A stretch of 64,000 nucleotides of DNA from Rhizobium alarense (GTDB lineage Bacteria > Pseudomonadota > Alphaproteobacteria > Rhizobiales > Rhizobiaceae): NCBI RefSeq assembly GCF_021555155.1, contig NZ_JAKGBU010000010.1:1-64000 (forward strand), written 5' to 3'. Position 1 is the stretch's first letter; the number at the start of each line of letters is the position of its first letter. Under the pieces are notes generated by a model that worked only from the letters and a program-made list of their open reading frames with translations, was not told the DNA's origin and did no database searches. This document shows positions 2-17,582 of the stretch, one piece after another. Both the position numbers and the translations under genes were made by a program.

Positions 2-628
2 CGCGGCGGCGGGATGCTGATCGGCATGGGCCACGGCCGCACGCTCGCCGCCTGCGTCGAATATCTGCCGCGCACCTCGACCAACGGCGTGCGCTTCGTC
101 TCGCTGCTCGGCGGGCTCACGCGAAAATTCTCGGCCAACCCGCATGACGTGATCCACCGCCTCGCGGAGCGCACGGGCGCGGAGGCCTATGTCATGCCGG
201 TGCCGTTCTTCGCCAACTCGGTGGAGGACCGGAACATCCTCTTCAGCCAGCGCGGCGTGCGCGAGGTCTTCGATCTGGCCGCTGGCGCCGACCTGCTGTT
301 GGTCGGCATCGGCACCGCCGAGCGCGAGGCGTCGCTCGTCGCGACCGGCATGATCGAGAAGGGCGAGATCGAGGAGGTGAAGCGCGCCGGCGGCGTCGGC
401 GAAATCCTCGGCCACTTCTTCGACGCCAGGGGCAGGCCCGTCGAGACGTCGTTGTCCGACCGTACTTTCACGCTCGGGCGCGACCAGTTGCGCGACCGGC
501 GCATCGTCGCGGTGGCAGGCGGCAAGATCAAGCTGCCGGCGCTGAAGGCGGTGCTGGCGAGCGGCTGGCTCTCCGGCCTCATCACCGACGAGGCGACGGC
601 GCTCGCTCTCATGGGAAAGGCCGCATGA
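2..628 (+). CDS. SorC-family sugar-sensing transcriptional regulator, C-terminal part (EryD-like)
   Basis: The gene runs in from the left edge; about 208 residues of a protein that is normally near 315 are visible and the N-terminal helix-turn-helix is outside the window. What remains matches the SorC sugar-binding effector domain: the segment around GMGHGRTL near the start, the stretch ending in LLVGIGTAE near residue 100, and the G-x-I-x-G-x-FFDARG pattern near residue 130. Members of this family bind a phosphorylated sugar and control an adjacent sugar operon; EryD of Brucella is a SorC protein that controls eryABC. Its place directly before the transporter and the EryA-type kinase supports the role of local regulator. 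The exact ligand cannot be read from the sequence. Confidence 0.8.
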   Translation, partial: RGGGMLIGMGHGRTLAACVEYLPRTSTNGVRFVSLLGGLTRKFSANPHDVIHRLAERTGAEAYVMPVPFFANSVEDRNILFSQRGVREVFDLAAGADLLLVGIGTAEREASLVATGMIEKGEIEEVKRAGGVGEILGHFFDARGRPVETSLSDRTFTLGRDQLRDRRIVAVAGGKIKLPALKAVLASGWLSGLITDEATALALMGKAA

Positions 629-753: not shown

Positions 754-2199
754 ATGCATGAGAAAGAGAGAGACCTCATCGGCGCGTTCATGCGCGGCCA
801 GATGGACCGCCGCTCGCTGCTGAAGGGCCTTGGCGCGATGGGCATGACGACGGCCGGCGCCGGCACGCTCTACAATATGATGGCGACCCAGGCACTCGCC
901 GCCGATTTCGACTGGAAGGCGCATTCCGGCAAATCGCTGAAGCTGCTTCTGAACAAACATCCCTATGCCGACGCGATGATCGCCAACCTGCAGGCCTTCA
1001 AGGACCTGACGGGCATGGAGGTCACCTATGACGTGTTCCCGGAGGACGTCTATTTCGACAAGGTGACGGCGGCGCTGTCGTCAGGCTCGTCGGAATACGA
1101 TGCCTTCATGACCGGCGCCTACATGACCTGGACCTACGGCCCGGCCGGCTGGATCACCGACCTCAAGGAATGGATCAACGATCCGGAAAAGACCAACCCG
1201 CAATATGCCTGGGACGACTTCCTGCCCGGCGTGCGCGACAGCTGCGCCTGGAACGGCCAGCCGGGCGGCGCGCTCGGCTCGGAAGACGCCAAGCAGTGGT
1301 GCATTCCGTGGGGTTTCGAGCAGAACAACATCAGCTACAACAAGGGCATGTTCGACAAGGTCGGCGTCTCGGTTCCGAAGAACATCGACGAGATGATCGA
1401 GATTTCGGCCAAGCTCACCAAGGACGTCGGCGGCGGCGTCTACGGCATCGGCGTCCGCGGCTCGCGCTCCTGGGCGACGATTCATCCGGGCTTCCTGTCG
1501 GGCTATGCCAATTTCGGCCAGAAGGACCTGAATGTCTCGGCAGACGGCAAGCTGTCGGCGGCGATGAACACGGCGGACTCCAAGTCCTACCACTCGAAGT
1601 TCGTCCAGATGATCCAGGAGAGCGGCCCGAAGGACTGGTCGACCTATACCTGGTATCAGGTCGGCACCGACCTCGGCGCCGGCGCCTCCGCCATGATCTT
1701 CGACGCCGACATCCTCGGCTACTTCATGAATGGCGGCGACAACAAGATGGCCGGCCAGCTCGCCTATGCGCCGTTTGCCGCCAATCCGGATGCCGACGCC
1801 CCGACGCCGAACATCTGGATCTGGTCGCTCTCCATGTCCAACTTCGCGAAGGACAAGGATGCGACCTGGTACTTCCTGCAATGGGCATCCGGCCTCGAGC
1901 ACGCCATCTTCGGCGCGACGAAGATGGACTTCGTCAACCCGGTCCGCCAGTCGGTCTGGAAGGATCCGGCCTTCACGGAGCGGCTCAACAAGAGCTATCC
2001 GGGCTATGTCGACATGTTCAACGTCTCGGCTCCCGGCGCCTCGATCAAGTTCACGGCGCAGCCGCTGTTCTTCGACGTCACGACCGAATGGGCGGCGACG
2101 CTGCAGCGCATGGTCGCCAAGGAAGTGCCGGTGGACGAGGGTCTCGACCAGCTCGCCGAGAGCATCGACCGGCAGCTCAAGGAAGCCGGCCTCGGCTGA
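754..2199 (+). CDS. ABC transporter substrate-binding protein, CUT1-type (extracellular solute-binding family 1)
   Basis: 481 residues with a Tat-like N-terminus (MDRRSLLKGL near residues 22-31) and a hydrophobic stretch ending near ALA-ADF, so it is predicted to be exported to the periplasm. The body has the shape of a family 1 solute-binding protein. It is the first gene of a complete importer (binding protein, two permeases, two ATPases) that leads straight into sugar kinase genes, so it should bind the polyol or sugar used by this locus. A good ribosome site (GGAGGAGAAGAC) sits just before the ATG. The protein is longer than a typical MalE (about 400). The ligand is unknown; erythritol or another short polyol is an inference from the neighbours. 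Confidence 0.85.
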   Translation: MHEKERDLIGAFMRGQMDRRSLLKGLGAMGMTTAGAGTLYNMMATQALAADFDWKAHSGKSLKLLLNKHPYADAMIANLQAFKDLTGMEVTYDVFPEDVYFDKVTAALSSGSSEYDAFMTGAYMTWTYGPAGWITDLKEWINDPEKTNPQYAWDDFLPGVRDSCAWNGQPGGALGSEDAKQWCIPWGFEQNNISYNKGMFDKVGVSVPKNIDEMIEISAKLTKDVGGGVYGIGVRGSRSWATIHPGFLSGYANFGQKDLNVSADGKLSAAMNTADSKSYHSKFVQMIQESGPKDWSTYTWYQVGTDLGAGASAMIFDADILGYFMNGGDNKMAGQLAYAPFAANPDADAPTPNIWIWSLSMSNFAKDKDATWYFLQWASGLEHAIFGATKMDFVNPVRQSVWKDPAFTERLNKSYPGYVDMFNVSAPGASIKFTAQPLFFDVTTEWAATLQRMVAKEVPVDEGLDQLAESIDRQLKEAGLG

Positions 2200-2221
2200 T
2201 GGCGAACGCGCGAATGTGCAG

Positions 2222-2354: not shown

Positions 2355-3278
2355 ATGGCTTCACCGGCAACCTACCAGAACAAGGCGTCCGGCTTCCGGA
2401 TCTCGCGACGGGCGCTGCCCTATGTGCTCAGCCTTCCCGCACTCCTCGTCTGCATCGGCATCCTCATCCCGTTCTTCACGGCGGTCATATACTCGTTCCA
2501 GCGCTATCGCCTGTCGCAGCCCTGGGCGCGGCAGTTCAACTGGGGTGAGAACTATCTCAACTTCTTCACCGATCCGGCCTTCTGGAACACGCTCAAAGTG
2601 TCGCTGATGTATGCCGGCTTTACCGTGGTGCTGGAACTGCTGCTCGGCCTCGGCATCGCGCTGCTGCTCCAACGCCGCTCGACGGTCAACAATTTCATCT
2701 CGATCATGCTGCTCCTGCCGCTGATGATCGCGCCGGCGCTCGCCGCGCTGATGTGGAAGCTGATGACCAATCCGGGCTTCGGCATCCTCAGCTATCTCGC
2801 CAGCCTGATCGGGCTTGAGGATTTCCGTTGGGCCTCCTCGCCGAACACGGCGCTGCTGACGGTCGTGCTCGTCGACATCTGGGTCTATACGCCCTTCATC
2901 ATGATCCTGCTTCTGGCCGGCCTGCGTTCGCTGCCGACCCAGCCCTTCGAGGCGGCGGCGCTCGACGGCGTGCCGCGGCTCTTCGTCTTCTTCAGGATCA
3001 CCCTGCCGATGCTGACGCCCTATATCCTGACGGCGACACTCTTCCGGCTGCTCGACAGCATCCAGCAGTTCGACATCATCTATGCGATGACGCAGGGCGG
3101 GCCGGGCAACACGCTGACCGTCTTCCAGGTCGAGGCCTATCTGAACTTCTTCCAGTCGACCAATGTCGGGCGCTCGGCGGCACTGCTGATCATCCTGTGG
3201 GCGATCACCTACATCCTCTCCAACATTTTCATCAAGAACTGGCTGCGGCTGCGCGAACGCGCCCGCGGCGAGGCGTGA
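2355..3278 (+). CDS. ABC transporter permease, MalF/UgpA type
   Basis: 307 residues with about six membrane segments, the first near residues 22-45. The cytoplasmic EAA loop is visible as EAAALDGVPRLFVFFRITLP near residue 200, which docks onto the ATPase subunits. It is the first of two permeases of the CUT1 importer and is followed after 10 bases by the second. The family forms the transmembrane pore for sugars, polyols and glycerol phosphate. Start chosen at the ATG in AATGCACCATGGCT; no strong ribosome site is visible, so the N-terminus is slightly uncertain. Confidence 0.88.
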   Translation: MASPATYQNKASGFRISRRALPYVLSLPALLVCIGILIPFFTAVIYSFQRYRLSQPWARQFNWGENYLNFFTDPAFWNTLKVSLMYAGFTVVLELLLGLGIALLLQRRSTVNNFISIMLLLPLMIAPALAALMWKLMTNPGFGILSYLASLIGLEDFRWASSPNTALLTVVLVDIWVYTPFIMILLLAGLRSLPTQPFEAAALDGVPRLFVFFRITLPMLTPYILTATLFRLLDSIQQFDIIYAMTQGGPGNTLTVFQVEAYLNFFQSTNVGRSAALLIILWAITYILSNIFIKNWLRLRERARGEA

Positions 3279-3288
3279 GGGCAAAGTC

Positions 3289-4146
3289 ATGGAAACCATG
3301 TCCCCCATCGAAAGGACGCTGCGCTTCGTCGCGCTCAGCCTCGTCGTCCTTTTCTTCATGTTTCCGATCGTCTGGATCTTCCTGATGTCGTTCCAGACGA
3401 ACGAAACGATCCTGCAGATCCCGCCAAAGCTGTTCTTTGCGCCGACGCTCGAAAACTACGCGGCGCTGATCACCGGCAAGCTGACGACGGCGGCCGGCAC
3501 GCTCGACATCGCCTTTATGAAGAACCTCGGCAATTCGGTCTTCCTGTCGGTGACGTCCGTCGCGGTGGCTCTGCTGCTCGGCGTACCGGCTGCCTATGCC
3601 TTCGCGCGCCACAAGTTCAAGGGCTCGGAAGACATCGCCTTCACGCTGCTCTCCTTCCGCTTCGCGCCGCCGCTCCTGGTGCTGCTGCCGCTGACCCAGT
3701 ATTTCCAGTGGCTCGGCCTCGCCAACACCTATATCGGCCTCATCTGGGTCTACCAGCTGATCTGCCTGCCGCTGATCCTCTGGATCGTGCGCGGCTATTT
3801 CGAGGACATCTCGGCCGACGTCGAATATGCCTATCGCATTGCCGGCCACTCCTGGTTCGCGACGTTCCGGAAGATCGCGCTGCCGCTTGCCGGTCCGGGC
3901 ATCGCGGCGGCCGGCCTGCTCGCCTTCATCTTCGCCTGGAACAATTTCGTCTTCGCGCTGGTGCTGGCATCGGCCGACAAGCAGCCGGTAACAGTCGGCG
4001 CGCTCGCCTTCGTCACCTCGTCAGGCATCCAGTACGGCCAGATCGCCGCGGCGATCGTGCTCTCCGTCACGCCGACGCTCGCACTCGCACTCTACGCCCA
4101 GCGCTACCTCGTCGAAGGCCTGTCGCTCGGTGCGGTGAAGGGGTAG
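3289..4146 (+). CDS. ABC transporter permease, MalG/UgpE type
   Basis: 285 residues, about six membrane segments (first near residues 14-35), with the EAA-like loop at EYAYRIAGHSWFATFRKIAL near residue 183. It pairs with the preceding MalF-type permease. The gene ends 4 bases before the first ATPase gene, so the five transporter genes form one unit. The protein belongs to the binding-protein-dependent transport inner membrane family; the substrate is set by the binding protein and is not evident here. Confidence 0.88.
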   Translation: METMSPIERTLRFVALSLVVLFFMFPIVWIFLMSFQTNETILQIPPKLFFAPTLENYAALITGKLTTAAGTLDIAFMKNLGNSVFLSVTSVAVALLLGVPAAYAFARHKFKGSEDIAFTLLSFRFAPPLLVLLPLTQYFQWLGLANTYIGLIWVYQLICLPLILWIVRGYFEDISADVEYAYRIAGHSWFATFRKIALPLAGPGIAAAGLLAFIFAWNNFVFALVLASADKQPVTVGALAFVTSSGIQYGQIAAAIVLSVTPTLALALYAQRYLVEGLSLGAVKG

Positions 4147-4150
4147 GACC

Positions 4151-5269
4151 ATGACCACGCTCACACTCGACACCGTCGTCAAGCGCTACAAGGGCCAGGC
4201 CGTGCTCGACCATCTGTCGCTCGACGTCGCCGACGGGGAAACGCTCGTGCTCTTCGGCCCCTCCGGCGCCGGCAAGTCGGTGCTGCTGCGCCTCGTCGCG
4301 GGCGTCATCGAGCCGGACGAGGGCAAGGTGCTGATCGGCGGCAAGGACATGACCGACGTCGATGCCGAACACCGCGGCATCGGCATGGCGTTCCAGAATT
4401 TCGCGCTCTTCCCGCATATGGACGCGTTCAAGAACATCGCGACGCCGCTCGAAGCGACGCGCTCCTCCGGCGACGCGATCAAGGCCGGCGTGCAGAAGGT
4501 GGCGAAGCTTCTCAAGATCGACCACGTCCTGACGCATCATCCCAAGGCATTGTCGAACGGCCAGAAGCAGCGCACGGCACTTGCCCGCGCGCTCGTCGGC
4601 GCGCCGCCGCTGCTTTTGCTCGACGATCCGCTCCGCAACGTCGATGCGAAATTGCGCTTCGAGATGCGGCTCGAACTGCCGCGGCTGCTCGCAGCGCAGG
4701 GCGCGACGGTCGTCTATGTGACGCAGGACTACAAGGAGGCGATGGCGCTCGGCGACCGGATCGCCGTGATGGCCGCCGGCCGCATTCACCAGATCGGCAC
4801 GCCGGAGGAAATCTACACGGCGCCGGCGACGATCGAGATCGCCCGGCTCTTCGGCGATCCGACCATCAACCTGCTCGACGTGACGCCGAAGCCGGAGGCG
4901 GGCGGTGTGTCCGTGCAGCTTTCCGACGTGCGGATCGTGCTGCCGGACATTCCGGCCGCGGTCGCCGGCAAGGCCTGCGTGCTCGGGCTCCGGCCGGAAG
5001 CGGTGACCTTCGTCGCGGCGGATAAACCCGGCGCCATTCCGGTGAGTGTCGAGGCGGAGACGCCGCTCAACGAAAAGACTGTGACGCTCGTGCTGACGGC
5101 GCGCGGGCGTGAAATCCTGGTCTCCCGGCCGGCCGGCACACCCGGCCCCAATTCGGGACCGGCGCATATCGCCGTCGACGGCAGCCATGCCTTCCTCTTC
5201 GACAAGGCGTCGGGCGCGCTGATCGCCCGCGAAGGCAATTGTTCAGGAACACGGGGAGAAGCGGCATGA
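4151..5269 (+). CDS. ABC transporter ATPase with degenerate catalytic motifs (GlpS-like position)
   Basis: 372 residues with a MalK-type layout: nucleotide-binding domain to about residue 240, then a TOBE-like regulatory domain. Walker A is GPSGAGKS (36-43) and the Q-loop FQN has Gln82. Three key sites differ from the family norm: the signature reads LSNGQ (134-138) not LSGGQ, the catalytic Glu after the Walker B Asp is Asp159 (LLLLDDP), and the switch His is Gln192 (VTQD). Such changes usually make a nucleotide site slow or inactive. A second, largely canonical ATPase follows with an ATGA overlap, so the two probably form an unequal heterodimer, as in rhizobial glycerol importers that also carry paired ATPase genes (GlpS/GlpT). 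Confidence 0.88.
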   Translation: MTTLTLDTVVKRYKGQAVLDHLSLDVADGETLVLFGPSGAGKSVLLRLVAGVIEPDEGKVLIGGKDMTDVDAEHRGIGMAFQNFALFPHMDAFKNIATPLEATRSSGDAIKAGVQKVAKLLKIDHVLTHHPKALSNGQKQRTALARALVGAPPLLLLDDPLRNVDAKLRFEMRLELPRLLAAQGATVVYVTQDYKEAMALGDRIAVMAAGRIHQIGTPEEIYTAPATIEIARLFGDPTINLLDVTPKPEAGGVSVQLSDVRIVLPDIPAAVAGKACVLGLRPEAVTFVAADKPGAIPVSVEAETPLNEKTVTLVLTARGREILVSRPAGTPGPNSGPAHIAVDGSHAFLFDKASGALIAREGNCSGTRGEAA

Positions 5270-6390
5270 GCGGCGCGGCACTTCAGATCAACGGCGTCGA
5301 CAAGTTCTACGGCCCCGTCGACCACGGCGTCCATGCCGTCAGGAAGCTCTCGATGCATATCGAGAAGGGCGAGATCGTCGCGCTGCTCGGCTCGTCCGGC
5401 TGCGGCAAGACCTCGACGCTGCGCATGATCGCCGGCTTCGAGCCGGTGTCGCGCGGGCAGATTTCACTCGCCGGCCGCGAGATCCACACCTTTGCGCCGG
5501 TCAGGCGCAATGTCGCCATGGCCTTCGAAGGCTATTCGCTCTATCCGCCGCTGACGGTGCGCGAGAACATCGCCTTCGCGCTGAAGGCCGCCAGGCTGCC
5601 GCAGACTGTCGTCGACGAGAAGGTCGCGCATATCGCCAAACTGCTGGAGATCGAGGACATTCTGGGGCGGTATCCGAGCTCGATCTCGGGCGGCCAGCAG
5701 CAGCGCGCCTCGCTCGGCCGGGCGCTGATCCGCGACGCCGACCTGCACCTGCTCGACGAGCCGATGGGCCAGCTCGAGCCGCAACTGCGTGCCGTTCTGC
5801 GCGGCCGCATCAAGCACTATATCAAGGAGAACGGCCTGACGGCGATCCTCGTCACCCATGACCAGACCGAGGCGAACGCGCTCGCCGACCGCATTGCCGT
5901 CATGGAGGGCGGCGTGCTGCAGCAGTTCGATACGCCGCAGATGATCAAGGAGCGGCCGGCGAACCTCTTTACCGGCACCTTCGTCGGCGAGCCGCCGATG
6001 AACGTTTTCGAGGCGGGCATCGCCGCAACCGGCGATACGATCGTGTTCGGCCTCGGCGAAGGCGCGCGGCTCGAATACCAGGCATCCGATTTTTCCGCCG
6101 CCGTGCTCGGCGAACTCCGGAACCGCAAGAAGGTGGTGCTCGGCATCCGGCCCTATTCGGTCCGGCGCGAGGAGGGCGGCGTGCCGGCCAGGGTCGCCGT
6201 CAGCCAGTGGCTCGGCGACCAGACCCATATCGCCGTCGATTTCGCCGGCGGCACCATGGTGCTCGTCGAACACGACCGGGTGAGGTTGGAGCATGGCGAC
6301 ACGATCGGCCTGACGCTCGACGCGGGCGCGCTGCATGTCTTCGATGCGGAGACCGGCAAGGCCGTCAGCCACGGACCGGAGCTCGCCTGA
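5266..6390 (+). CDS. ABC transporter ATPase, catalytic partner (GlpT-like position)
   Basis: 374 residues, MalK/UgpC type with C-terminal TOBE region. Walker A GSSGCGKT (42-49), signature SGGQQQR (141-147), Walker B ending HLLDEP with Glu165, and switch His198 (VTHD) are intact. The Q-loop, normally FQN or FQS, reads FEGY with Glu88 in place of Gln. The ATG at 5266 overlaps the previous stop as ATGA and follows GGGAGAAGCGGC, so it is preferred over an upstream in-frame start at 5239. It should supply the working ATP site in a heterodimer with the degenerate ATPase before it. Confidence 0.88.
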   Translation: MSGAALQINGVDKFYGPVDHGVHAVRKLSMHIEKGEIVALLGSSGCGKTSTLRMIAGFEPVSRGQISLAGREIHTFAPVRRNVAMAFEGYSLYPPLTVRENIAFALKAARLPQTVVDEKVAHIAKLLEIEDILGRYPSSISGGQQQRASLGRALIRDADLHLLDEPMGQLEPQLRAVLRGRIKHYIKENGLTAILVTHDQTEANALADRIAVMEGGVLQQFDTPQMIKERPANLFTGTFVGEPPMNVFEAGIAATGDTIVFGLGEGARLEYQASDFSAAVLGELRNRKKVVLGIRPYSVRREEGGVPARVAVSQWLGDQTHIAVDFAGGTMVLVEHDRVRLEHGDTIGLTLDAGALHVFDAETGKAVSHGPELA

Positions 6391-6391
6391 G

Positions 6392-7951
6392 ATGCGCGAT
6401 GTCCTGATCGGCATAGATGCGGGAACCTCCGTCATCAAGTCGGTCGCCTTCGACCTGAAGGGCCGGCAGATCGCCAGTGCGGCGATCCCCAATGCCTATG
6501 AGACGGTAGGTCGTACAGGCGCGGTGCAGGACATGGACCGCACCTGGGCCGATACCGCGCGCACGCTGGTCGAGCTTGCCGGCAAGGTCGATAACCTCGC
6601 CTCCCGTGTCGTCGCGATCGCGGTGACGGGGCAGGGCGACGGGACCTGGCTGGTCGACAGGGACGGCCAGCCGGTCGGCAAGGGCTGGCTCTGGCTCGAC
6701 GCGCGCGCCGGCGACACGGTGGCGCGGCTGCGCGAAACCGGCGGCGATGCGGAGCGCTTCCGCCACACGGGATCCGGCCTCGCCGCCTGCCAGCAGGGCC
6801 CGCAGCTACGCTGGATGCTCGACAATGCGCCGGAGATGCTCGATGGCGCTGCGACGGGCTTTCATTGCAAGGACTGGCTCTATTTCAAGCTGACCGGCCG
6901 GCGGGCGACCGACCCGTCCGAGGCCTGCTTCACCTTCGGCAATTTCCGCGAACGCGCCTATTCGGATACGGTCATCGACTTCCTCGATCTTCGCAAGCAG
7001 ACCTACCTGCTGCCGGAGATCGTCGATGGCGCGACGACGCATCATCCGCTGTCCGAGGCCGCCGCGGCCCTGACGGGCCTGCCATCCGGCACGCCGATCG
7101 TGCTCGGCTATGTCGATGTCGCCTGCACATCGCTGGGTGCCGGGCTCTACGATCCCGGCACCGACATCGGCTGCTCCATCGTCGGCTCGACCGGCATGCA
7201 CATGCGGCTTGCGACCAGCGCCGACGATGTCAGGCTGAACGCCGACCGCACCGGCTACACGATGTGCCTGCCGATCCCCGGCGTCTATGCGCAGATGCAG
7301 TCCAACATGGCGGCGACGCTCAACATCGACTGGATCCTGTCGGTCGCCGGCGGGCTTTTAAAAAGCATGGGCATCGGAAAATCCAAGGCGGAGCTTCTGG
7401 CGCATCTCGACGGCTGGCTGGCCGAGGCGAGCGACCGGCCACCGATCTTTCACCCCTATATTTCCGAAGCCGGCGAGCGCGGGCCTTTCGTCGATGCCTC
7501 GGCGCGGGCGTCCTTCGTCGGCCTCTCGGTCGCGAGCGGCTTTCCCGACATGGTGCGCGCCGTCTTCGACGGGCTCGCGCTCGCCGCCCGCGACTGCTAC
7601 CTCGCCATGGGGCCGCTGCCGGCGCGCGTCAGGCTGACGGGTGGCGCGGCGCGCAGCGCCTCGCTGCGGCGCATCCTCGGCGGCGCGCTCGGGGCGAGCG
7701 TGCAGACCAGCGAGCGCGAGGAGGCGGGTGCGGCCGGTGCCGCGATGATCGCCGCCGTCTCGCTCGGGCTCTACGGTTCGATGGCCGATTGCGTGGCGGA
7801 ATGGGTGCGCCCCTGCCAGCGCCCGGCGGAACCGGCGGACGAGGCGCTCGTCCGGCATTTCGAGGCGGTCTTCCCGGCCTATCGCCAGTCGCGCGAGGCG
7901 CTCCGGCCGGTCTGGCAGGCGATGACACGACAACAGGACGACGTTCGATGA
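6392..7951 (+). CDS. eryA: FGGY carbohydrate kinase, erythritol kinase-like
   Basis: 519 residues, the same length as Brucella EryA. The FGGY N-terminal phosphate loop GIDAGTSVIKSVAF (7-20), the stretch VTGQGDGTW near residue 75, KDWLYFKLTGRRATDPSEA near residue 160 and the C-terminal RLTGGAARS near residue 416 are characteristic. The family transfers the gamma phosphate of ATP to a terminal hydroxyl of a polyol or ketose; EryA makes L-erythritol 4-phosphate. Start set at 6392, just after the ATPase stop. The protein resembles EryA more than xylulokinase in the segments I can recall, but D-threitol or another polyol cannot be excluded as substrate. Confidence 0.8.
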   Translation: MRDVLIGIDAGTSVIKSVAFDLKGRQIASAAIPNAYETVGRTGAVQDMDRTWADTARTLVELAGKVDNLASRVVAIAVTGQGDGTWLVDRDGQPVGKGWLWLDARAGDTVARLRETGGDAERFRHTGSGLAACQQGPQLRWMLDNAPEMLDGAATGFHCKDWLYFKLTGRRATDPSEACFTFGNFRERAYSDTVIDFLDLRKQTYLLPEIVDGATTHHPLSEAAAALTGLPSGTPIVLGYVDVACTSLGAGLYDPGTDIGCSIVGSTGMHMRLATSADDVRLNADRTGYTMCLPIPGVYAQMQSNMAATLNIDWILSVAGGLLKSMGIGKSKAELLAHLDGWLAEASDRPPIFHPYISEAGERGPFVDASARASFVGLSVASGFPDMVRAVFDGLALAARDCYLAMGPLPARVRLTGGAARSASLRRILGGALGASVQTSEREEAGAAGAAMIAAVSLGLYGSMADCVAEWVRPCQRPAEPADEALVRHFEAVFPAYRQSREALRPVWQAMTRQQDDVR

Positions 7952-8988
7952 CGAAGACGATAGCGATTGCCGGCGACCGGTTCATGCTGCCGCAGGTGTT
8001 CCGCGACAAGCTGGTGGAGGCGGCCGGCGACGGACACGAGATCCGCATGCTCGAACTGCCCTGGCCGGACGTGCCGATGGAGCACGGCTATGCAGTCGAG
8101 GGCATGGACGGGCTGAAGGAATATCTCGGCTCGGCCGACGAGATCGTCGATTTCATCGGCGACGCGGAGATCTTCATCACCCAGCTCGCGCCGCTGTCGC
8201 GCGGCATGTTCGAGCGGCTGCCGGGGCTGAAATTCGTCGCCGTCTCGCGCGGCGGGCCGGTCAATATCGACATGGCGGCGGCGCGCGAGGCAGGGGTTAC
8301 CGTGGTCAACACGCCGGGCCGCAATGCGAGTGCCGTCGCCGAATTCACCATCGGCGCGATCCTCGCCGAGACGCGGCTCATCCGCACCGGCCATGAATCG
8401 CTGCGCCGGGGCGAATGGCGCGGCGAGCTCTACCGCGCCGACGTGACGGGCCGCGAACTTTCCGAAATGACGGTGGGCGTGATCGGCTACGGCAATATCG
8501 GCACCAAGGTCGTGCGGCTGCTGCGCGCCTTCGGCACCAAGGTCCTGGTGCACGATCCCTATGTGCAGCTTTCGGCCGAGGACCGCAATGCCGGCGTCGA
8601 GCATGTGGCGCTCGACGACCTGCTGTCGCGCTCCGACATCGTCACGTTGCATCCGCGCGTGACGGAGGAGACGCGCAACATGGCGAATGCCGAGGCGTTT
8701 GCGAAGATGAGGCCGGGCGCGCTTTTCGTGAACACGGCGCGCGGGCCGCTCTGCGACTACGACGCGCTCTACGATGCGCTTGTCGGCGGCCATCTCGGCG
8801 GCGCCATGCTGGAGACCTTTGCCGTCGAGCCGGTGCCGGCGGACTGGCCGCTCCTGCAACTGCCGAACGTCACGCTGACGCCGCATATCGCCGGCGCGTC
8901 CGTGCGCACCGTCACCTATGCCGCCGAGATGGCGGCGGACGAGGTGCGCCGCTACATCGCCGGCGAGCCGCCGGTCAATCCGTGCTGA
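7948..8988 (+). CDS. D-isomer-specific 2-hydroxyacid dehydrogenase (SerA-like)
   Basis: 346 residues. The NAD-binding Rossmann motif GYGNIG lies at 180-185, the substrate-loop segment SRGGPVNID near 100-108, the catalytic Arg in NTARGPLCDYDAL near residue 257, and the catalytic His in LTPHIAGAS near residue 313. The family interconverts D-2-hydroxyacids and 2-ketoacids using NAD(P). Its ATG overlaps the kinase stop (ATGA). In a tetritol or pentitol locus it may oxidise or reduce an aldonate-type side intermediate such as a tetronate, but this is an inference; the classical erythritol pathway needs no such enzyme. Confidence 0.83.
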   Translation: MTKTIAIAGDRFMLPQVFRDKLVEAAGDGHEIRMLELPWPDVPMEHGYAVEGMDGLKEYLGSADEIVDFIGDAEIFITQLAPLSRGMFERLPGLKFVAVSRGGPVNIDMAAAREAGVTVVNTPGRNASAVAEFTIGAILAETRLIRTGHESLRRGEWRGELYRADVTGRELSEMTVGVIGYGNIGTKVVRLLRAFGTKVLVHDPYVQLSAEDRNAGVEHVALDDLLSRSDIVTLHPRVTEETRNMANAEAFAKMRPGALFVNTARGPLCDYDALYDALVGGHLGGAMLETFAVEPVPADWPLLQLPNVTLTPHIAGASVRTVTYAAEMAADEVRRYIAGEPPVNPC

Positions 8989-8995
8989 GGACGCC

Positions 8996-9661
8996 ATGAA
9001 CGAGCTTGCCATCCGCCAGTCGATCATCGACCACTGCCGGGCCATGAACGCCTCCGGCCTCAACCAGGGCACATCCGGCAATATCTCCGTGCGCTTCGGC
9101 GAACGCATGCTGATCACGCCGTCCGGCATCCCCTATGACACGATGACGCCTGAGATGATCGCGTCGCTGCCGCTTTCGGGCGACGGAGACTATGACGGTC
9201 CGAAGAAGCCTTCGGTCGAATGGCCCTTCCATCTCGCGATCCAGAAGGCGCGGCCGGATGTCGGCGCCGTCGTGCACACACACTCGACCTTCGCGACGAT
9301 CCTTGCAATTGCGCGAAAGCCCATTCCCGCCTGCCACTACATGGTCGCGGCCTTCGGCGGCAGCGATGTTCGCGTGGCGGACTATGCGCGCTACGGCACG
9401 ACGGACCTCTCGGACAACATCATCCGCGCGATGGACGGCCGCTCGGCCTGCCTGATGGCGAACCACGGCATGATTGCGACCGGCGCGACGCTGGAAAAGG
9501 CGATGTGGGCGGCGGTCGAGCTCGAGACGCTGGCGAAGCAATATTACCACGCGCTGCTGATCGGCAATCCGGTGATCCTGCCCGACGCGGAGATCGCCGG
9601 CGTGCTCAAGGGTTTCGCGACGTACGGTCTGCAGGACGGAAAAGGCGGCAAGGCCGCGTGA
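8996..9661 (+). CDS. Class II aldolase/adducin family protein (L-fuculose-phosphate aldolase-like)
   Basis: 221 residues, normal for FucA/AraD-type aldolases. The phosphate-binding GTSGNIS (25-31), metal-site HTH (His94, His96), likely catalytic Glu75 and third metal His157 in MANHG are present. These zinc enzymes cleave or epimerise ketose 1-phosphates, releasing dihydroxyacetone phosphate in the FucA reaction; other members decarboxylate 3-oxo-tetronate phosphates (OtnC). It starts 7 bases after the dehydrogenase stop and precedes the GlpD-like gene, so it belongs to the operon. The substrate is not known. Confidence 0.85.
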   Translation: MNELAIRQSIIDHCRAMNASGLNQGTSGNISVRFGERMLITPSGIPYDTMTPEMIASLPLSGDGDYDGPKKPSVEWPFHLAIQKARPDVGAVVHTHSTFATILAIARKPIPACHYMVAAFGGSDVRVADYARYGTTDLSDNIIRAMDGRSACLMANHGMIATGATLEKAMWAAVELETLAKQYYHALLIGNPVILPDAEIAGVLKGFATYGLQDGKGGKAA

Positions 9662-9691: not shown

Positions 9692-11218
9692 GTGACAGCG
9701 GAAACCGGCATATACGACCTGCTCGTCATCGGCGGCGGCGTCAACGGTGCGGGCATCGCGCGCGACGCGGCGGGCAGGGGGCTTTCCGTGCTGCTCTGCG
9801 AGAAGGACGATCTGGCGCAGGGAACCAGCTCACGCTCCGGCAAGCTGGTGCATGGCGGGCTTCGCTATCTCGAATATTATGAGTTCCGGCTGGTGCGCGA
9901 GGCGCTGATCGAGCGCGAGGTGCTGCTGGAGGCAGCACCCCACATCATCTGGCCGATGCGCTTCGTGCTGCCGCACAATCCCGAGGATCGTCCGGCCTGG
10001 CTCGTGCGGCTCGGCCTTTTCCTCTACGACCATCTCGGCGGCCGCAAGCGCCTGCCGGCAACGCGCACGCTCGATCTGAAGACGGCCCCGGAGGGCGCGC
10101 CGATCCGCAACGAATACCGCAAGGCCTTCGAATATTCCGACTGCTGGGTGGATGATTCCCGGCTTGTCCTGCTCAATGCGTTGGATGCCGAAGCGAAGGG
10201 CGCGAAGGTGATGACCCGCACCGCCTGTTCGGTCGTGCGGCGCGATGGTCCGCTTTGGACGGCCGAACTGACAGATACATTGACGGGCGAGAAGCAGGCG
10301 GTCACGGCGCGCTGCCTCGTCAACACGGCCGGTCCCTGGGTCAACGACGTGATCGGCCGCGTCGCCGGCCTCAACTCGGCGCGCAACGTGCGGCTCGTCA
10401 AGGGCAGCCACATCATCGTGCCGAAATTCTGGGAGGGGCGGCAGGCCTATCTGGTGCAGAACCCGGACAAGCGGGTGATTTTCATCAACCCCTACCAGAA
10501 CGATCTGGCACTGATCGGCACGACCGATATTCCCTACGAGGGCCGGCCGGAGGACGTGGCGGCGGACGGCAACGAAATCGCCTATCTCTTGAAATCGGTG
10601 AACCGCTATTTCAAGCAGCAGCTCGTCGAAAGCGACATCATCCATTCCTTCTCGGGTGTCCGGCCGCTCTATGACGACAATGCGGAAAACCCGAGCGCGG
10701 TGACGCGCGACTACATTTTCGAGGTCGACGGCGACGACGGGAAGGCGCCGCTGCTCTCCGTCTTCGGCGGCAAGATCACCACCTTCCGCAAGCTGTCGGA
10801 ACACGCCCTGGAGAAGATCAGGCCGTTCTTCCCGGCGATGGGACCTGCCTGGACGGCGAAGGCCAGCCTGCCCGGCGGCGACATTCCGGATGCCGATTTC
10901 GATCAGTTCCTCGGCGAGCTTCGCGCCCGCTACCGTTTTCTGCCGCCCGATCTCGCCAAGCACTATGCCCGCCTCTACGGCACCCGGGCCTATCAATTGA
11001 TCGGCGATGCGGCCACCATTGCCGACCTTGGCGAGAGCTTCGGGCCTTATCTCCGGGAACGGGAGGTGCGTTTCCTCGTCGAGACCGAATGGGCCGTGAC
11101 ACCGGAGGACATTCTCGAGCGCCGTACCAAACACGGCCTGCACATGAACGAGGCGGAGAAGATAGCCTTCGCCGCATGGTTCAGCGGAGCCGAACAGAGA
11201 TTGAGAGCCGCGACCTGA
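9692..11218 (+). CDS. FAD-dependent polyol-phosphate dehydrogenase, GlpD/EryB family
   Basis: 508 residues starting at GTG with ribosome site AGGAGAAGAG. The FAD-binding motif is at 14-19 (GGGVNG), followed by GTSSRSGKLVHGGLRYLEYYE (about 45-65), the hallmark of glycerol-3-phosphate dehydrogenases. C-terminal DAO domain continues to about residue 500. GlpD and EryB are membrane-associated flavoproteins that pass electrons to quinone. Because the locus also holds EryA- and EryC-type genes, oxidation of L-erythritol 4-phosphate to a tetrulose phosphate (EryB) is likely. Sequence alone does not separate EryB from GlpD safely, so I give no gene symbol. Confidence 0.82.
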   Translation: MTAETGIYDLLVIGGGVNGAGIARDAAGRGLSVLLCEKDDLAQGTSSRSGKLVHGGLRYLEYYEFRLVREALIEREVLLEAAPHIIWPMRFVLPHNPEDRPAWLVRLGLFLYDHLGGRKRLPATRTLDLKTAPEGAPIRNEYRKAFEYSDCWVDDSRLVLLNALDAEAKGAKVMTRTACSVVRRDGPLWTAELTDTLTGEKQAVTARCLVNTAGPWVNDVIGRVAGLNSARNVRLVKGSHIIVPKFWEGRQAYLVQNPDKRVIFINPYQNDLALIGTTDIPYEGRPEDVAADGNEIAYLLKSVNRYFKQQLVESDIIHSFSGVRPLYDDNAENPSAVTRDYIFEVDGDDGKAPLLSVFGGKITTFRKLSEHALEKIRPFFPAMGPAWTAKASLPGGDIPDADFDQFLGELRARYRFLPPDLAKHYARLYGTRAYQLIGDAATIADLGESFGPYLREREVRFLVETEWAVTPEDILERRTKHGLHMNEAEKIAFAAWFSGAEQRLRAAT

Positions 11219-12276
11219 TGATACGCAGTCCCGAATTCGAAGCCCTCATCGCGCTTTCCGCCCGGATCGGCGCCGACCCGGCGCTGGTGCAGGGCGCGGG
11301 CGGAAACACCTCGATCAAGGAGGGCGGTACGCTCTGGATCAAGGCCTCGGGCCTCTGGCTGCGCGATGCGCTGAGGCGCGACCTGATGGTGCCGGTGGCG
11401 CTGGAGCCGCTGCTCGACGCGCTCGACCGCGACGATCCTTCGGCCGAGAAGGCACAGGACTATGTCGTCAAAGAGAAGAACCCCTCCGGCCTGCGCCCCT
11501 CCATCGAGACGACGGTGCATGCGCTGATGGAGCAGACGGTCGTGGTGCATGTGCATTGCGTCGAGACCATTGCACACGCGGTGCAGCAGAACGGCGAGAT
11601 CATCGCGGCCGAAAAGCTCGACGGGTTGGCGCATGCCTTCGTGCCCTATGCGCGTCCCGGCCTGCCCTTGGCGCGGGCCATCGCGTCGCGGATTGCGCCG
11701 GAGACCAGCGTTCTGATCCTCGGCAATCACGGGCTTGCGGTCGCCGGTGAGACGGTAGCGGAGGCGGCGGCGCTGCTGGAGGAGGTCTCGCGCCGGCTGG
11801 CGCTGCCGGCGCGACCCTTCGTCAGGCCGGATGTGCCGGCGCTGGAGCGGCTGGCGCTCGACAGCGCCTACCGGCTTCCCGACGATCCCGCCATCCACGG
11901 CGTGGCAACCGATCTTGCGAGTTGCCGGCATGCGGCCGGCGGCAGCCTCTATCCGGACCATGTCATTTTTCTCGGCAAGGGCTCCGTCATCGTCGAACCC
12001 GGCGGCACGGCGCTCGATATCGAGAAACAGCATGTCGAGGAGAGCCGGGCACTCCCTCCGGCGATCCTCTTCCCCGGCAAGGGCGTCCTCGTTTCAAAGG
12101 AAGCGAGCGAGGGGGCCCTTGCCATGGCGCGCTGCCTGTCGGACGTGGCCTCCCGCATTCCGGCGGCAGCGCGCCTGCGTTACTTTACCGAGGCGGAGAA
12201 TGGCGAACTGCTCGGCTGGGATGCGGAAAAATACCGGCAGGCGCTGAACCGGCCGGCAAACGGGGTGCTGCAATGA
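11218..12276 (+). CDS. Class II aldolase-family protein, RhaD-type N-domain alone
   Basis: 352 residues; its ATG overlaps the previous stop (TGATG). It resembles the aldolase half of the long bifunctional aldolase/short-chain-dehydrogenase proteins, with LVQGAGGNTSIK (24-35), Glu97, metal pair HVH (His111, His113) and LGNHGLAV near residue 175. The dehydrogenase half of those fusions is absent: the reading frame stops where it would begin. The protein should be a metal-dependent aldolase or epimerase acting on a sugar phosphate. A second class II aldolase just upstream suggests two different C-C bond or epimerisation steps in this pathway. Confidence 0.8.
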   Translation: MIRSPEFEALIALSARIGADPALVQGAGGNTSIKEGGTLWIKASGLWLRDALRRDLMVPVALEPLLDALDRDDPSAEKAQDYVVKEKNPSGLRPSIETTVHALMEQTVVVHVHCVETIAHAVQQNGEIIAAEKLDGLAHAFVPYARPGLPLARAIASRIAPETSVLILGNHGLAVAGETVAEAAALLEEVSRRLALPARPFVRPDVPALERLALDSAYRLPDDPAIHGVATDLASCRHAAGGSLYPDHVIFLGKGSVIVEPGGTALDIEKQHVEESRALPPAILFPGKGVLVSKEASEGALAMARCLSDVASRIPAAARLRYFTEAENGELLGWDAEKYRQALNRPANGVLQ

Positions 12277-13550
12277 GCACGCCCGTCGTCGCCGGCATCG
12301 ACATCGGCACATCCGGCGTACGCGCGGTCGCGATGACGGAAGCGGGCGACGTCGTTGCATCGGGCGCGACGAAACTCGCGGCATTTTCCACCGATCACCG
12401 CGATCCCGCCGTCTGGCGTCGGGCGATGCAGATCGCACTGGCCGGGATGCTGGGCGCGTTGAACGACGAGAGGATCGTCGCAGTCGCGATCGACGGGACG
12501 TCCGGCACGCTGCTGCCGGTCGATGAAGAGGGGCGGCCGCTGGCTGTGCCGATGATGTACAACGATCCCGTCACCGATGCCGCGATCCTCGAAGCCGTGT
12601 CGGCCAATGCTGCGCGCGAAAGTGCCGCGCACGGACCGACCTCCGGGCTTGCCAAGGCGATCGGCTTCCAGAGCCTTCCGGGTGTCGCGCGGGTGATCCA
12701 CCAGGCGGACTGGTTGTCCGGGTTGCTGATTGGCCGTTTCGACGTCTCCGACGAGAACAATGCCCTGAAGACCGGCTACGATCCGGTCGACCGCCGCTGG
12801 CCGGACTGGATCGCCGCGACGGGTGCCCGGCCGGAGTTGCTGCCGCAGGTGCTGCCGGCCGGATCGCCGGTCGGTCCGGTTGCGGCCCAGGCGGCCGCCG
12901 AATTTGGCCTTCCGTCCGGCGCGCTCGTCGTCACGGGCACGACGGACGGCTGCGCCTCCTTCCTTGCGACCGGCGCCGACCGGCCGGGCGACGGCGTGTC
13001 GGCGCTCGGCACGACGCTGACGGTGAAGATGCTCTCCGACCGGCCGCTCTTTGCGCCGGACTACGGGCTCTACAGCCACCGCATCGGCGACATGTGGCTG
13101 GCCGGCGGCGCCTCGAACACCGGCGGCGTCGTACTGGCACAGCATTTTTCCGGCGAGCGTATCGCGGAACTCTCGGGCCTCATCGATCCGGAGACGGATA
13201 CGGGGCTCGACTACTATCCGCTGCCGAAGCCCGGCGAGCGGTTTCCGGTCAGTGATCCGGTGCTTCCCCCGCGCATGACGCCGCGTCCCGACAGCGATGC
13301 CGAATTTCTGAAGGCGATCTTCGAGGGCATCGCCGGCATCGAAGCGCTCGCCTATCGACGGCTGTTGGACCTCGGCGGACCGCAGCTCGGCTCGATCAGA
13401 AGCGTCGGCGGCGGCGCTGCCAATGCCGTCTGGCAACGCATCCGCCAGCGACGGCTCGGCGTGCCCTTCCTGCCGGTTCTCTCGGAAGAGGCGGCGGCCG
13501 GCACGGCGCGGCTGGCTCTGGCAGGTGCCAGAAAGGCGGGTGTGCTGTGA
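12273..13550 (+). CDS. Short FGGY kinase of the cyanobacterial/plant D-ribulokinase (SePSK) type
   Basis: 425 residues, about 80 shorter than usual FGGY kinases and almost the same as the Synechococcus D-ribulose kinase SePSK (426). Matching segments are DIGTSGVRA (10-18), AIDGTSGTLLPVDEEGRPL near residue 70, DENNALKTGYDP near 160, TGTTDGCASFLATGA near 218, GASNTGGV near 275 and LPKPGERFPVSDP near 318. The family phosphorylates D-ribulose and possibly related ketoses at O5. ATGA overlap with the aldolase gene places it in the same transcript. A second kinase of a separate family branch means a second free ketose is phosphorylated in this pathway. Substrate by homology only. Confidence 0.8.
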   Translation: MSTPVVAGIDIGTSGVRAVAMTEAGDVVASGATKLAAFSTDHRDPAVWRRAMQIALAGMLGALNDERIVAVAIDGTSGTLLPVDEEGRPLAVPMMYNDPVTDAAILEAVSANAARESAAHGPTSGLAKAIGFQSLPGVARVIHQADWLSGLLIGRFDVSDENNALKTGYDPVDRRWPDWIAATGARPELLPQVLPAGSPVGPVAAQAAAEFGLPSGALVVTGTTDGCASFLATGADRPGDGVSALGTTLTVKMLSDRPLFAPDYGLYSHRIGDMWLAGGASNTGGVVLAQHFSGERIAELSGLIDPETDTGLDYYPLPKPGERFPVSDPVLPPRMTPRPDSDAEFLKAIFEGIAGIEALAYRRLLDLGGPQLGSIRSVGGGAANAVWQRIRQRRLGVPFLPVLSEEAAAGTARLALAGARKAGVL

Positions 13551-14386
13551 ATGTGCCCGTAAAGATCGCCGGGCTCGGCGCGGTGGCCGACCGTTTCGAC
13601 TGTTTCCTCGTCGACCAGTTCGGCGTGCTGCGCGACGGGCGCGGACCCTATCCGGGTGCCGCCGAAACGCTGTCGCGCCTGAAGGCGGCGGGCAAGCGCG
13701 TCATCATCCTGTCGAATTCGGGGAAGCGCGCGGCGGAAAACAGCCGGCGGCTTGCGGCAATCGGCTTCGACGAGGCGAATTGGGATCTGTTCCTCACGTC
13801 GGGCGAGACGGCCTGGCGTATCCTGAAGGCCGAAATGGCGGACGGTATCGAGCGGCGCTGCCTGCTGATCAGCCGTGACGGCGACACCTCGGCGATCGAC
13901 GGGCTCGGTTTGGTGCAGACGGCAACGGGTGCCGACGCCGACGTGGTGATGATCTCTGCCAGCGAAGGCGACCGCTATCCGCTCGACCATTACCGCACTC
14001 TGCTGGAGCCGGCCGCCCGGCGTGGCGTCGCCTGCTTCTGCACCAATCCCGACAAGGTCATGCTGACGCGCGACGGCGAGGCCTTCGGGGCGGGGCGCAT
14101 CGCGGACCTCTACGCGGAACTGGGCGGCACCGTGCGCTGGATCGGCAAACCGTTCTCCGACATCTATGCCGAGGCAATGCGGTTCCTCGGCGCGCCGGAC
14201 CCGTCGCGCGTCGTCTGCATCGGCGACAGCATCGAGCATGACATCGCGGGTGCCCAAGGCGCCGGCCTTGCCTCGGTCCTCGTTGCGACCGGCATCCTGG
14301 CCCGTGCAGACGATGCCGAGCGGGCGCGGCTCTACCGCGAGCACGGCGCGATGCCCGACTTCATCCTCCCGCAGTTTCTCTGGTAG
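13547..14386 (+). CDS. HAD-IIA hydrolase, TIGR01459-like (NagD-like phosphatase family)
   Basis: 279 residues, GTG start overlapping the kinase stop (GTGA). Motif I is VDQFGVL near residue 21: the nucleophile Asp is kept but the usual general acid at +2 is Phe, a replacement by an aromatic that this subfamily (often DVWGV) tolerates. Motif II Ser lies in VIILSNSG near 60; motif III Lys in WIGKPFSDIY near 203; motif IV is CIGDSIEHDI near 224. Likely a sugar-phosphate phosphatase, or a repair enzyme that removes dead-end phosphates made by the kinases; this role is inferred from its position between two kinase-type steps and EryC. Confidence 0.78.
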   Translation: MNVPVKIAGLGAVADRFDCFLVDQFGVLRDGRGPYPGAAETLSRLKAAGKRVIILSNSGKRAAENSRRLAAIGFDEANWDLFLTSGETAWRILKAEMADGIERRCLLISRDGDTSAIDGLGLVQTATGADADVVMISASEGDRYPLDHYRTLLEPAARRGVACFCTNPDKVMLTRDGEAFGAGRIADLYAELGGTVRWIGKPFSDIYAEAMRFLGAPDPSRVVCIGDSIEHDIAGAQGAGLASVLVATGILARADDAERARLYREHGAMPDFILPQFLW

Positions 14387-14403: not shown

Positions 14404-15330
14404 ATGCCCTTCACGCTCTCGCTCAACACGAACCCGCTGGTGAACCGCTTCGCCGAGGCCGACGACCTGATCGACACGATCGCCGAGACAATCCGTGTCT
14501 GTCATGTCCAGCTTACCCATGAATTCGTCAATCCGGGCTGGCCGGCCGCGACAATTGCGAAACAGCTGCGCGCCTTCCGCCGGGCACTCGACCGGACGGG
14601 CGTCAAGGTGACCTCCGGCATGACCGGGCCCTATGGCCGGCTCAACCATTTCGGCCATCCGGATGCCGATGTCCGGCGCTACTATATCGACTGGTTCAAG
14701 ACCTTTGCCGACATTTCCGCCGAACTCGGCGCGGCCGGCATGGGCACGCAGTTCGCGATCTTCACGCACAAGGATTATGACGACCCGGCGCGTCGCGAGG
14801 ACCTGATGACGGTCGCCATCGACTGCTGGGCGGAGGTCGCCGAGCACGGCAAGGCGGCAGGACTCGACTATATCTTCTGGGAGCCGATGTCGGTCGGGCG
14901 CGAGTTCGGCCATACGATCGCCGAATGCCGGGCGCTGGACACGCGGCTGGCGGCATCGGGCCTGGCGCTGCCCTTCCTGATGATGGTCGATATCGACCAT
15001 GGCGACGTGACCTCGCCGGACCCCGCCGACGTCGACCCCTATGCCTGGGCAGAGGCATTTCCGCCGCGCTCGCCGATCATCCACGTCAAGCAGTCGTCGA
15101 TGAACAAGGGCGGCCACTGGCCGTTTACCGCGCAGTACAACGCGGACGGACGCATCCAGCCGCAAAGGCTGCTCGACGCCGTCCGGCGGGGCGGCGGCAC
15201 GGACAACGAGATCTGCCTCGAACTGTCGTTCCGCGAACGCGAGCCGACCGACCATCGCGTGGTCGAGATGATCCGGGAGTCCGTCGAATTCTGGGAGCCC
15301 CATATCGACACCGGCTTCAACCGGCACTGA
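14404..15330 (+). CDS. eryC: L-3-tetrulose-4-phosphate isomerase/racemase-like protein (EryC)
   Basis: 308 residues, TIM-barrel sugar isomerase/epimerase. It closely follows the Brucella EryC sequence as I know it: SLNTNPLVNRFAE near residue 5, TSGMTGPYGRLNHFGHPD near 72, GTQFAIFTHKD near 114, FWEPMSVGREFG near 158 and NEICLELSFRERE near 272. EryC converts the product of EryB toward L-erythrulose 1-phosphate in the erythritol route. The gene follows the HAD gene after 17 bases and ends this transcript. The match is the strongest sign that the locus handles a four-carbon polyol. Confidence 0.85.
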   Translation: MPFTLSLNTNPLVNRFAEADDLIDTIAETIRVCHVQLTHEFVNPGWPAATIAKQLRAFRRALDRTGVKVTSGMTGPYGRLNHFGHPDADVRRYYIDWFKTFADISAELGAAGMGTQFAIFTHKDYDDPARREDLMTVAIDCWAEVAEHGKAAGLDYIFWEPMSVGREFGHTIAECRALDTRLAASGLALPFLMMVDIDHGDVTSPDPADVDPYAWAEAFPPRSPIIHVKQSSMNKGGHWPFTAQYNADGRIQPQRLLDAVRRGGGTDNEICLELSFREREPTDHRVVEMIRESVEFWEPHIDTGFNRH

Positions 15331-15377
15331 CCTTCCCCGCGGGGGAGCGTTTTAGAGACGGCGCTCATCCGCTCTTC

Positions 15378-15416
15378 GCCCCTGTTCCCGTTGCCGGCGG
15401 GGCAGGGGTGCTTTTT
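15378..15416 (+). terminator. Rho-independent terminator-like hairpin after eryC
   Basis: CCCCTG (15379-15384) pairs with CAGGGG (15403-15408), followed by TGC and five T residues (15412-15416). It lies between eryC and the AT-rich control region of the DeoR gene, so it probably ends the long kinase/aldolase transcript. Confidence 0.55.
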
Positions 15417-15452
15417 GTTGGCGTCACGGTAAATCTTCACATTATCGACTTA

Positions 15453-15485
15453 TGTAACATTGAAAAGTCACATGTTAATGTTACA
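15453..15485 (+). promoter_or_regulatory. AT-rich inverted repeat, likely DeoR-type operator
   Basis: TGTAACATT (15453-15461) and AATGTTACA (15477-15485) are perfect 9-base inverted repeats 15 bases apart. ATGTTA also occurs twice head to tail (15472-15477, 15478-15483). The block is strikingly AT-rich in a GC-rich region and lies about 80 bases before the DeoR-family gene. Likely the binding site for that regulator and the promoter for the DeoR-tpiA-rpiB unit. Confidence 0.6.
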
Positions 15486-15563
15486 TTGCGACCGTGGACG
15501 GGAGAAATCTCACGGCCACGCCATCGGATCGGAAGGGCGCGCCCTGAAGGCTGCGAAAGTCGC

Positions 15564-17113: not shown

Positions 17114-17141
17114 TTCAACGGTATCAGGAAGGAACCATCCC

Positions 17142-17582
17142 ATGAAAATCGCCATCGGAGCCGACAGCGCCGGCAAGCCGCTGCTCGACGTCATCGAAGC
17201 CCATCTCGCCACGAAGACGGACGTCACTGTCGCCAATCTCAGTCAGTCCGGCTTCTACGCCGACCTGTCCAAGAAGCTCGCCGAGACCATCGTCGCGGGC
17301 GAGAACGAGCGCGGCATCCTCGTCTGCGGCACCGGCATCGGCGTTTCGATCTCGGCCAACAAGGTCCCCGGCATCCGCGCCGCGCTGACGCATGACACCT
17401 ATTCGGCCGAGCGGGCCGCCAAGTCGAACAACGCGCAGATCATCACCATGGGTGCCCGCGTCATCGGCCCGGAACTCGCCAAGGCGATCGTCGACAAGTG
17501 GCTGGAATCGGAATTCGATCCGAACGGCTCGTCGGCCGACAACGTCAAGGCGATCGACCGGCTGGATACAGGCAAGGCCTGA
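17142..17582 (+). CDS. eryI: RpiB-type D-erythrulose-4-phosphate isomerase (EryI)
   Basis: 146 residues, normal RpiB length. The start [14 protein letters not shown] and the loop [15 protein letters not shown] with catalytic Cys62 are classic for ribose-5-phosphate isomerase B. In erythritol users the paralogue EryI turns D-erythrulose 4-phosphate into D-erythrose 4-phosphate, which enters the pentose phosphate pathway. A ribosome site AGGAAGGAACC precedes the start, 28 bases after eryH. Plain ribose-5-phosphate isomerase activity is the alternative. Confidence 0.83.

Follow-up and report, generated by a model that had tools for sequence, protein, structure and literature searches.

The polyol importer encoded in the analysed window (i.e. 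positions 1 to 64,000 of Rhizobium alarense contig NZ_JAKGBU010000010.1) is probably powered by a pair of unequal ATP sites, to which its two CUT1-type ATPases contribute functional residues that depart from the canonical set. Judging by these residues, we favour, with rather better than even confidence, a reading in which the first ATPase (ATPase A, MptD) and the second (ATPase B, MptE) form the obligate heterodimer of MptABCDE with one fast site (site 2) and one slow or dead site (site 1). This reading builds on the observed residues and how well they are conserved, on the fact that the two genes always occur as a pair and on the syntenic identity of the locus.

An Mpt-type importer with two altered ATPases

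A cluster of 17 genes (14-17582) matched a region of Sinorhizobium meliloti Ak57 (L141) in 17/17 genes and in the same order, with best segments of 65-95% identity (Table 1). By its gene content the Ak57 region appears to be the locus of 17 genes published for S. meliloti, in which erythritol, adonitol and L-arabitol are transported via MptABCDE and which also encodes EryA, EryB, EryC, EryD, EryR, TpiB, RpiB, FucA, LalA and RbtABC (excerpts of PMC3599248). The likeness to the S. meliloti transporter comprises a solute-binding protein, two permeases and two ATPases lying inside an eryD-to-rpiB locus. Because five mpt genes face five transporter genes, ATPases A and B were equated by position with MptD and MptE, the letters D and E being assigned from gene order. 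An importer of this kind works in cells, since strains mutated in the permease gene mptB are unable to use erythritol (excerpts of PMC10433430). By analogy with the function reported for S. meliloti, the window importer would carry erythritol, adonitol/ribitol and L-arabitol. Directly beyond rpiB, a short lumazine synthase-like protein was recognized by eye on the minus strand (17946-18446).

Table 1. Genes of the polyol cluster and diagnostic residues of the two ATPases (window positions; names 'by position' follow the S. meliloti locus)
Feature	Coordinates	Strand	Details
SorC-type sugar-binding regulator (EryD-like), cut by window start	14..628	+	Pfam Sugar-bind 3.7e-59; 78% to Ak57
Solute-binding protein (MptA by position)	754..2199	+	Pfam SBP_bac_1; 86% to Ak57, 444/481 aa
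Permease 1 (MptB by position)	2355..3278	+	Pfam BPD_transp_1; canonical EAA loop 2949-3008
Permease 2 (MptC by position)	3289..4146	+	Pfam BPD_transp_1; altered EAA loop 3823-3885
ATPase A (MptD by position), S-type	4151..5269	+	372 aa; Pfam and MalK fold
ATPase A signature LSNGQ, residues 134-138	4550..4564	+	Asn136 in 97/97 rows
ATPase A Asp159 at catalytic Glu position	4625..4627	+	codon GAT; 97/97 rows
ATPase A D-loop RNVDA (Ser to Arg162)	4634..4648	+	Arg162 in 96/97 rows
ATPase A Gln192 at switch His position (YVTQD)	4724..4726	+	codon CAG; 97/97 rows
ATPase B (MptE by position), T-type	5266..6390	+	374 aa; Pfam and MalK fold
ATPase B Q-loop Glu88 for Gln (AFEGY)	5527..5529	+	codon GAA; 94/94 rows
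ATPase B signature ISGGQ, residues 140-144	5683..5697	+	Ser141, Gly143 and Gln144 in 94/94 rows
ATPase B D-loop GQLEP, residues 168-172	5767..5781	+	Glu171 in 94/94 rows
ATPase B intact switch His198 (LVTHD)	5857..5859	+	codon CAT; 94/94 rows
FGGY kinase (EryA by position)	6392..7951	+	78% to Ak57
2-hydroxyacid dehydrogenase family protein (RbtA by position)	7948..8988	+	annotation and Ak57 match
Class II aldolase (FucA by position)	8996..9661	+	annotation and Ak57 match
GlpD-family polyol-phosphate dehydrogenase (EryB by position)	9692..11218	+	annotation and Ak57 match
Class II aldolase-like protein (LalA by position)	11215..12276	+	annotation and Ak57 match
Second FGGY kinase (RbtB by position)	12282..13550	+	annotation and Ak57 match
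HAD phosphatase (RbtC by position)	13547..14386	+	annotation and Ak57 match
Sugar-phosphate isomerase (EryC), DeoR regulator (EryR), triose-phosphate isomerase (TpiB) and RpiB, by position	14404..17582	+	annotation and Ak57 match

The ATG start codon of ATPase B (5266) overlaps the end of ATPase A by 4 bases. Both proteins are CUT1/MalK-type ATPases by domain content and fold: the Pfam domains ABC_tran and OB_MalK were present in each and TOBE_2 in ATPase B, and AlphaFold2 single-chain models built from family alignments (mean pLDDT of 89.8 for A and 90.5 for B) superimposed on MalK 2awn for A (Z 40.1, rmsd 2.6, 364 aligned residues, 35% identity) and on MalK 3rlf for B (Z 38.9, rmsd 2.8, 359 aligned residues, 33% identity). 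The two proteins lie outside the UgpC subfamily, having scored 299 (A) and 308 bits (B) with a model (NCBIfam NF008653) whose cut-off is 432 bits and which gave 545 bits on a canonical relative (L136).

The motif departures reported for ATPase A by the initial annotation (i.e. Asp159, Gln192 and LSNGQ) were all read in the sequence. Its numbering runs with that of MalK, such that Lys42, Gln82, Asp159 and Gln192 are equivalent to MalK Lys42, Gln82, Glu159 and His192, and Asp159 and Gln192 stood opposite the Glu and His of a solved CUT1 ATPase in an alignment. The Walker B motif reads LLLLDDP (residues 154-160) with Asp158 and Asp159. ATP binding by ATPase A is expected because its Walker A motif is intact and the A-loop aromatic residue (Tyr or Phe13) was conserved in 97/97 aligned proteins. 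For ATPase B, Glu88 and an intact Walker B (LHLLDEP, with the canonical Glu165) and switch His were likewise found as described, but its portrayal as a canonical partner failed as both the Q-loop and the D-loop are altered, the latter being GQLEP in place of the SNLDA of canonical CUT1 ATPases. Three further departures had been overlooked, namely this D-loop, Arg162 of ATPase A and the altered EAA loop of permease 2.

The EAA loop of permease 1 is canonical, with Glu199 and Asp204 in 95/95 rows. That of permease 2 (EYAYRIAGHS) had Ala or Gly for the Asp in 94/95 rows, and the second permeases of five other loci (L083, L092, L081, L082 and L137) retained DG in the aligned loop. In MalFGK2 the Q-loop lies next to the docked EAA loop, and by analogy Glu88 of ATPase B and the lost Asp of permease 2 might be matched to each other. 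Mean conservation over 84 loci was 90% for the permeases and 82% and 86% for the nucleotide-binding domains (NBDs) of A and B, falling to 64% and 63% in their respective C-terminal parts. The permeases were more conserved than the NBDs, the reverse of the usual remark, as made in PMC7756269, which gives the NBDs first place in conservation.

Fixation of the departures among relatives

The distribution of these residues was examined in 80 loci with ATPase A identities of 70-84%, obtained by scanning a single genome from each species, and in 16 further distant loci of the same class (51-79% identity to ATPase A by local alignment). All 80 close relatives carried LSNGQ, DDP, RNVDA and TQD in ATPase A and AFEGY, DEP, GQLEP and THD in ATPase B, S. 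meliloti 4H41 (L034) being among them. The 16 distant loci had the full motif set except for Cys162 in one ATPase A and, in ATPase B, SAGQ in three and SQLEP in two. Conservation was counted on rows covering at least 85% of the protein, with the window as one row; of the 96 loci, three lacked a row for ATPase B and two for each permease. Two canonical loci (L136 and L137) retrieved together with the distant loci were excluded from the 96. On this basis Asp159, Gln192 and Asn136 were invariant in ATPase A (97/97) at identities of 50-84%, Glu88 and Glu171 were invariant in ATPase B (94/94), and position 142 of the ATPase B signature was Gly in 91 rows and Ala in three. ATPases A and B co-occurred in 96/96 loci, and A was followed directly by B in every locus with listed positions.

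The codons varied whilst the residues did not: Asp159 was encoded by GAT (73) or GAC (24), Gln192 by CAG (93) or CAA (4) and Glu88 by GAG (66) or GAA (28). A single third-position change would convert Asp to Glu or Gln to His, and neither change was seen at Asp159 or Gln192 in 97 rows. As the codons vary only silently, even though one base would restore Glu or His, the pattern is read as purifying selection for the non-canonical state. Invariance alone is not unusual, as 82/235 NBD columns of ATPase A and 96/241 of ATPase B were invariant; what sets these positions apart is that they are functional ones at which a non-canonical residue has become fixed. Outside the family, among 30 CUT1 ATPase loci retrieved by a search with a related protein (L092), DEP, THD and LSGGQ were found in 30/30 and a Q-loop Gln with SNLDA in 29/30.

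Close homologues of ATPase A with Glu and His, named at the outset as the sign of a local mutation or error, were sought and none occurred in the 80 and 16 loci. The earlier view of an unequal CUT1 ATPase pair has gained from this, the pair being old, under selection and no error, since it is fixed in relatives. Local mutation and sequencing error are ruled out by departures fixed across relatives at ~50% divergence; together with a decaying gene, which the lack of internal stop codons in either ATPase gene of the 80 relatives also opposes, they form an explanation with next to no credibility. Relatives at ~41% identity to ATPase A (L136 and L137) were canonical, and no intermediates between ~50% and 41% were found among the relatives read. 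Occurrence was patchy: the pair was detected in 16/121 genomes of the family of the window (Rhizobiaceae) and, at class level, in 6/385 genomes, 8/385 having passed the threshold before two canonical matches were removed.

Composite ATP sites and their proposed working

In MalK-type dimers each ATP is sandwiched by the two subunits, one of which provides the Walker motifs and the other the signature. The MalK of MalFGK2 is one canonical protein used twice; its fold is common to ATPases A and B over nearly their whole length, whereas MptD and MptE are two proteins. In the predicted A-B heterodimer, site 1 would combine the intact Walker A, Asp159 and Gln192 of ATPase A with the ISGGQ signature and GQLEP D-loop of ATPase B, and site 2 would combine the likewise intact Walker A, Glu165, His198 and Glu88 of ATPase B with LSNGQ of ATPase A. 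The initial annotation had likewise paired the defects of A with the signature of B and the reverse, an assignment that is sound by homology to MalK. Judged by these residues, site 1 would have poor catalytic residues and a good signature, whereas in site 2 the catalytic residues would be good and the signature and Q-loop altered. In the favoured reading, MptD and MptE would function only as a heterodimer, in which the two composite sites are unequal; site 1 would bind ATP, with slow or no hydrolysis, and hold the dimer together, site 2 would perform most of the hydrolysis and each import cycle would cost about one ATP.

Known exporters share one part of this arrangement. Degenerate sites of human exporters always have an altered partner signature, replacement of Glu by Asp comes second in frequency and H-loop changes often accompany it (excerpts of PMC7756269). 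ATPase A is like TAP, TM287/288 and the human ABCB/ABCC proteins in its Walker B change of Glu to Asp, which in those proteins is often joined by an H-loop change (same excerpts). The exporter analogy drawn at the outset holds for the Walker B and H-loop but breaks down on the signature: in human exporters the altered signature faces the degenerate site (PMC7756269, available text), whereas in the Mpt pair the signature facing site 1 (i.e. that of ATPase B) was intact in 91/94 rows and the altered one, LSNGQ, is that of ATPase A itself and lies on the other site. In the placement of its motif defects, the pair does not follow the exporter type with a single degenerate site. Among importers, RbsA and NupO of Bacillus subtilis resemble it in having one degenerate site and differ in their fused NBDs, the loss of the Walker A Lys and their membership of another importer class (excerpts of PMC11466899).

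Two other workings of the pair have to be set against that with one fast site. Both sites could hydrolyse, Asp159 and Gln192 being tuned but functional, with an asymmetric sequence and a nearly symmetric mechanism. Glu-to-Asp sites of exporters retain some hydrolysis, although much slower than the transport cycle, as the favoured reading proposes for site 1, and changes of the switch His in NBS2 of ABCC1 abolish transport with the exception of Gln (excerpts of PMC7756269); by analogy Gln192 may be tolerable in ATPase A, which counts against the one-fast-site reading, and the intactness of the ATPase B signature, unlike that facing degenerate human exporter sites, likewise speaks for hydrolysis at both sites. 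The two catalytic residues were, however, changed together with no reversion in 97 rows, and Glu and His were both kept in 30/30 CUT1 ATPases outside the family; we give hydrolysis at both sites about one chance in four.

The preferred role of site 2 as the fast site is itself weakened, as this site is non-canonical (LSNGQ and Glu88). A motor in which the defects are split, with site 1 weak in catalysis and site 2 in signature and Q-loop, might instead fire sequentially or jointly and have no dominant consensus site. The fixation of LSNGQ (97/97) and Glu88 (94/94), both on site 2, points this way, as does the fixed unusual EAA loop of permease 2, the docking partner of one ATPase. Asn at the third position of LSGGQ, a glycine position, may however be nearly neutral, and such a motor appears improbable, more so than hydrolysis at both sites.

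The Mpt transporter is already known and the asymmetry of its ATPases seems undescribed. The ATPase residues were undiscussed in the available parts of the published MptABCDE descriptions (PMC3599248 and PMC10433430), and a survey of the open-access literature, a scope outside which the original mpt and glpST papers lie, found no description of ATPase asymmetry in CUT1 importers, including Mpt and GlpS/GlpT.

GlpS/GlpT and the origin of the pairs

The same genome also carries a glp locus (L083, C13) in which a tandem pair of ATPases (5431-7595) accompanies GlpR and GlpD, and the names GlpS/GlpT were given to the pair from this neighbourhood. Glp-type matches were obtained in 60 of 150 genomes of the order, and 30 Glp loci, one of them from this genome, were read. 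GlpS lacked the fourth-position Gly of Walker A and had Thr, Ala or Ser for the switch His in 30/30 loci whilst retaining the Walker B Glu, and the GlpT signature was LxAD in 30/30. GlpS/GlpT (glpSTPQUV) resemble MptD/MptE as tandem S-type then T-type CUT1 ATPases serving a polyol. By their motifs, nearly all GlpS/GlpT defects would fall on one composite site, an exporter-like layout in a glycerol importer, whereas those of MptD/MptE are spread over both. The window pair is not GlpS/GlpT under another name: the proteins formed separate clades, the Glp motif defects occurred in 0/96 window-type loci and the pair sits in an ery-type locus without the GlpR/GlpD neighbourhood of a glp operon. On the evidence of these motifs, two asymmetric CUT1 motors with different defect layouts coexist in one genome.

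Work on degenerate ATP sites has mostly concerned exporters, many of them human. Here two asymmetric importer motors occur together, in the class of the symmetric MalK, one of the ABC motors that are understood best. A comparison of GlpS/GlpT with MptD/MptE would test directly if two hydrolysis events are required for import and if it matters which side of the dimer carries a defect, and the Mpt system is genetically workable in S. meliloti.

A tree of 88 rows and 191 columns, with the motif columns omitted, resolved ATPase A, ATPase B, GlpS and GlpT as one clade each with 100% bootstrap. ATPase A grouped with GlpS (99/81) and, on adding the first ATPase of L092, at 99/87. ATPase B grouped with GlpT and the second ATPase of L092 at 93/93, a value below the level starred by the tool, and on long branches. 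The order S-type then T-type is common to the Mpt, Glp and L092 pairs. Forcing A and B into one clade was marginally rejected (AU p 0.047) and forcing GlpS and GlpT into one clade was not (p 0.316). A recent local duplication of A giving B was discarded on the separate 100% clades and the marginal rejection of an A+B clade. These topologies suggest that one ancestral pair likely lies behind the Mpt and Glp ATPases, a reading kept tentative because the GlpS+GlpT clade was not rejected, support for the second grouping was 93/93 and the branches are long. A broader proposal, which we consider possible but rather less probable than its negation, is that the polyol importers of Alphaproteobacteria go back to a single ancient S-type plus T-type CUT1 heterodimer whose symmetry was lost twice and differently, in an exporter-like manner in GlpS/GlpT and in a split manner in MptD/MptE, leaving MptABCDE without a fully canonical ATP site.

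The L092 locus (159-2430) encodes two tandem CUT1 ATPases, each with a Q-loop Glu and the second also with DEV for DEP, the Walker B Glu and the switch His being kept, and on these motifs it is a possible intermediate between the canonical and the Mpt/Glp types. It stands alone in this respect because the 30 loci read from a search with its S-type protein were canonical except for L193. A degenerate DNA pattern for a Q-loop Glu matched 5/240 genomes of the class; three matches belonged to the Mpt-type family and the others were L206, the same gene as L193 (with LSGGQ and THD), and L207. L193 and L207 were included in the 88-row tree. L193 combines a Q-loop Glu with an unusual D-loop, IAHLDA, and a Q-loop Glu coincides with an altered D-loop in L193, L092 and ATPase B of the window. 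Other unusual CUT1 ATPases were an S-type-like protein (L090, 1378-2562) with Pro for the switch His (YATPDE) and a Walker A of GPSSVGKT, and, in the genome of the window, two tandem CUT1-like pairs (L081, C122, and L082, C131) with the signatures LSGGD/LSGGE or LAGGD and with Glu and His intact.
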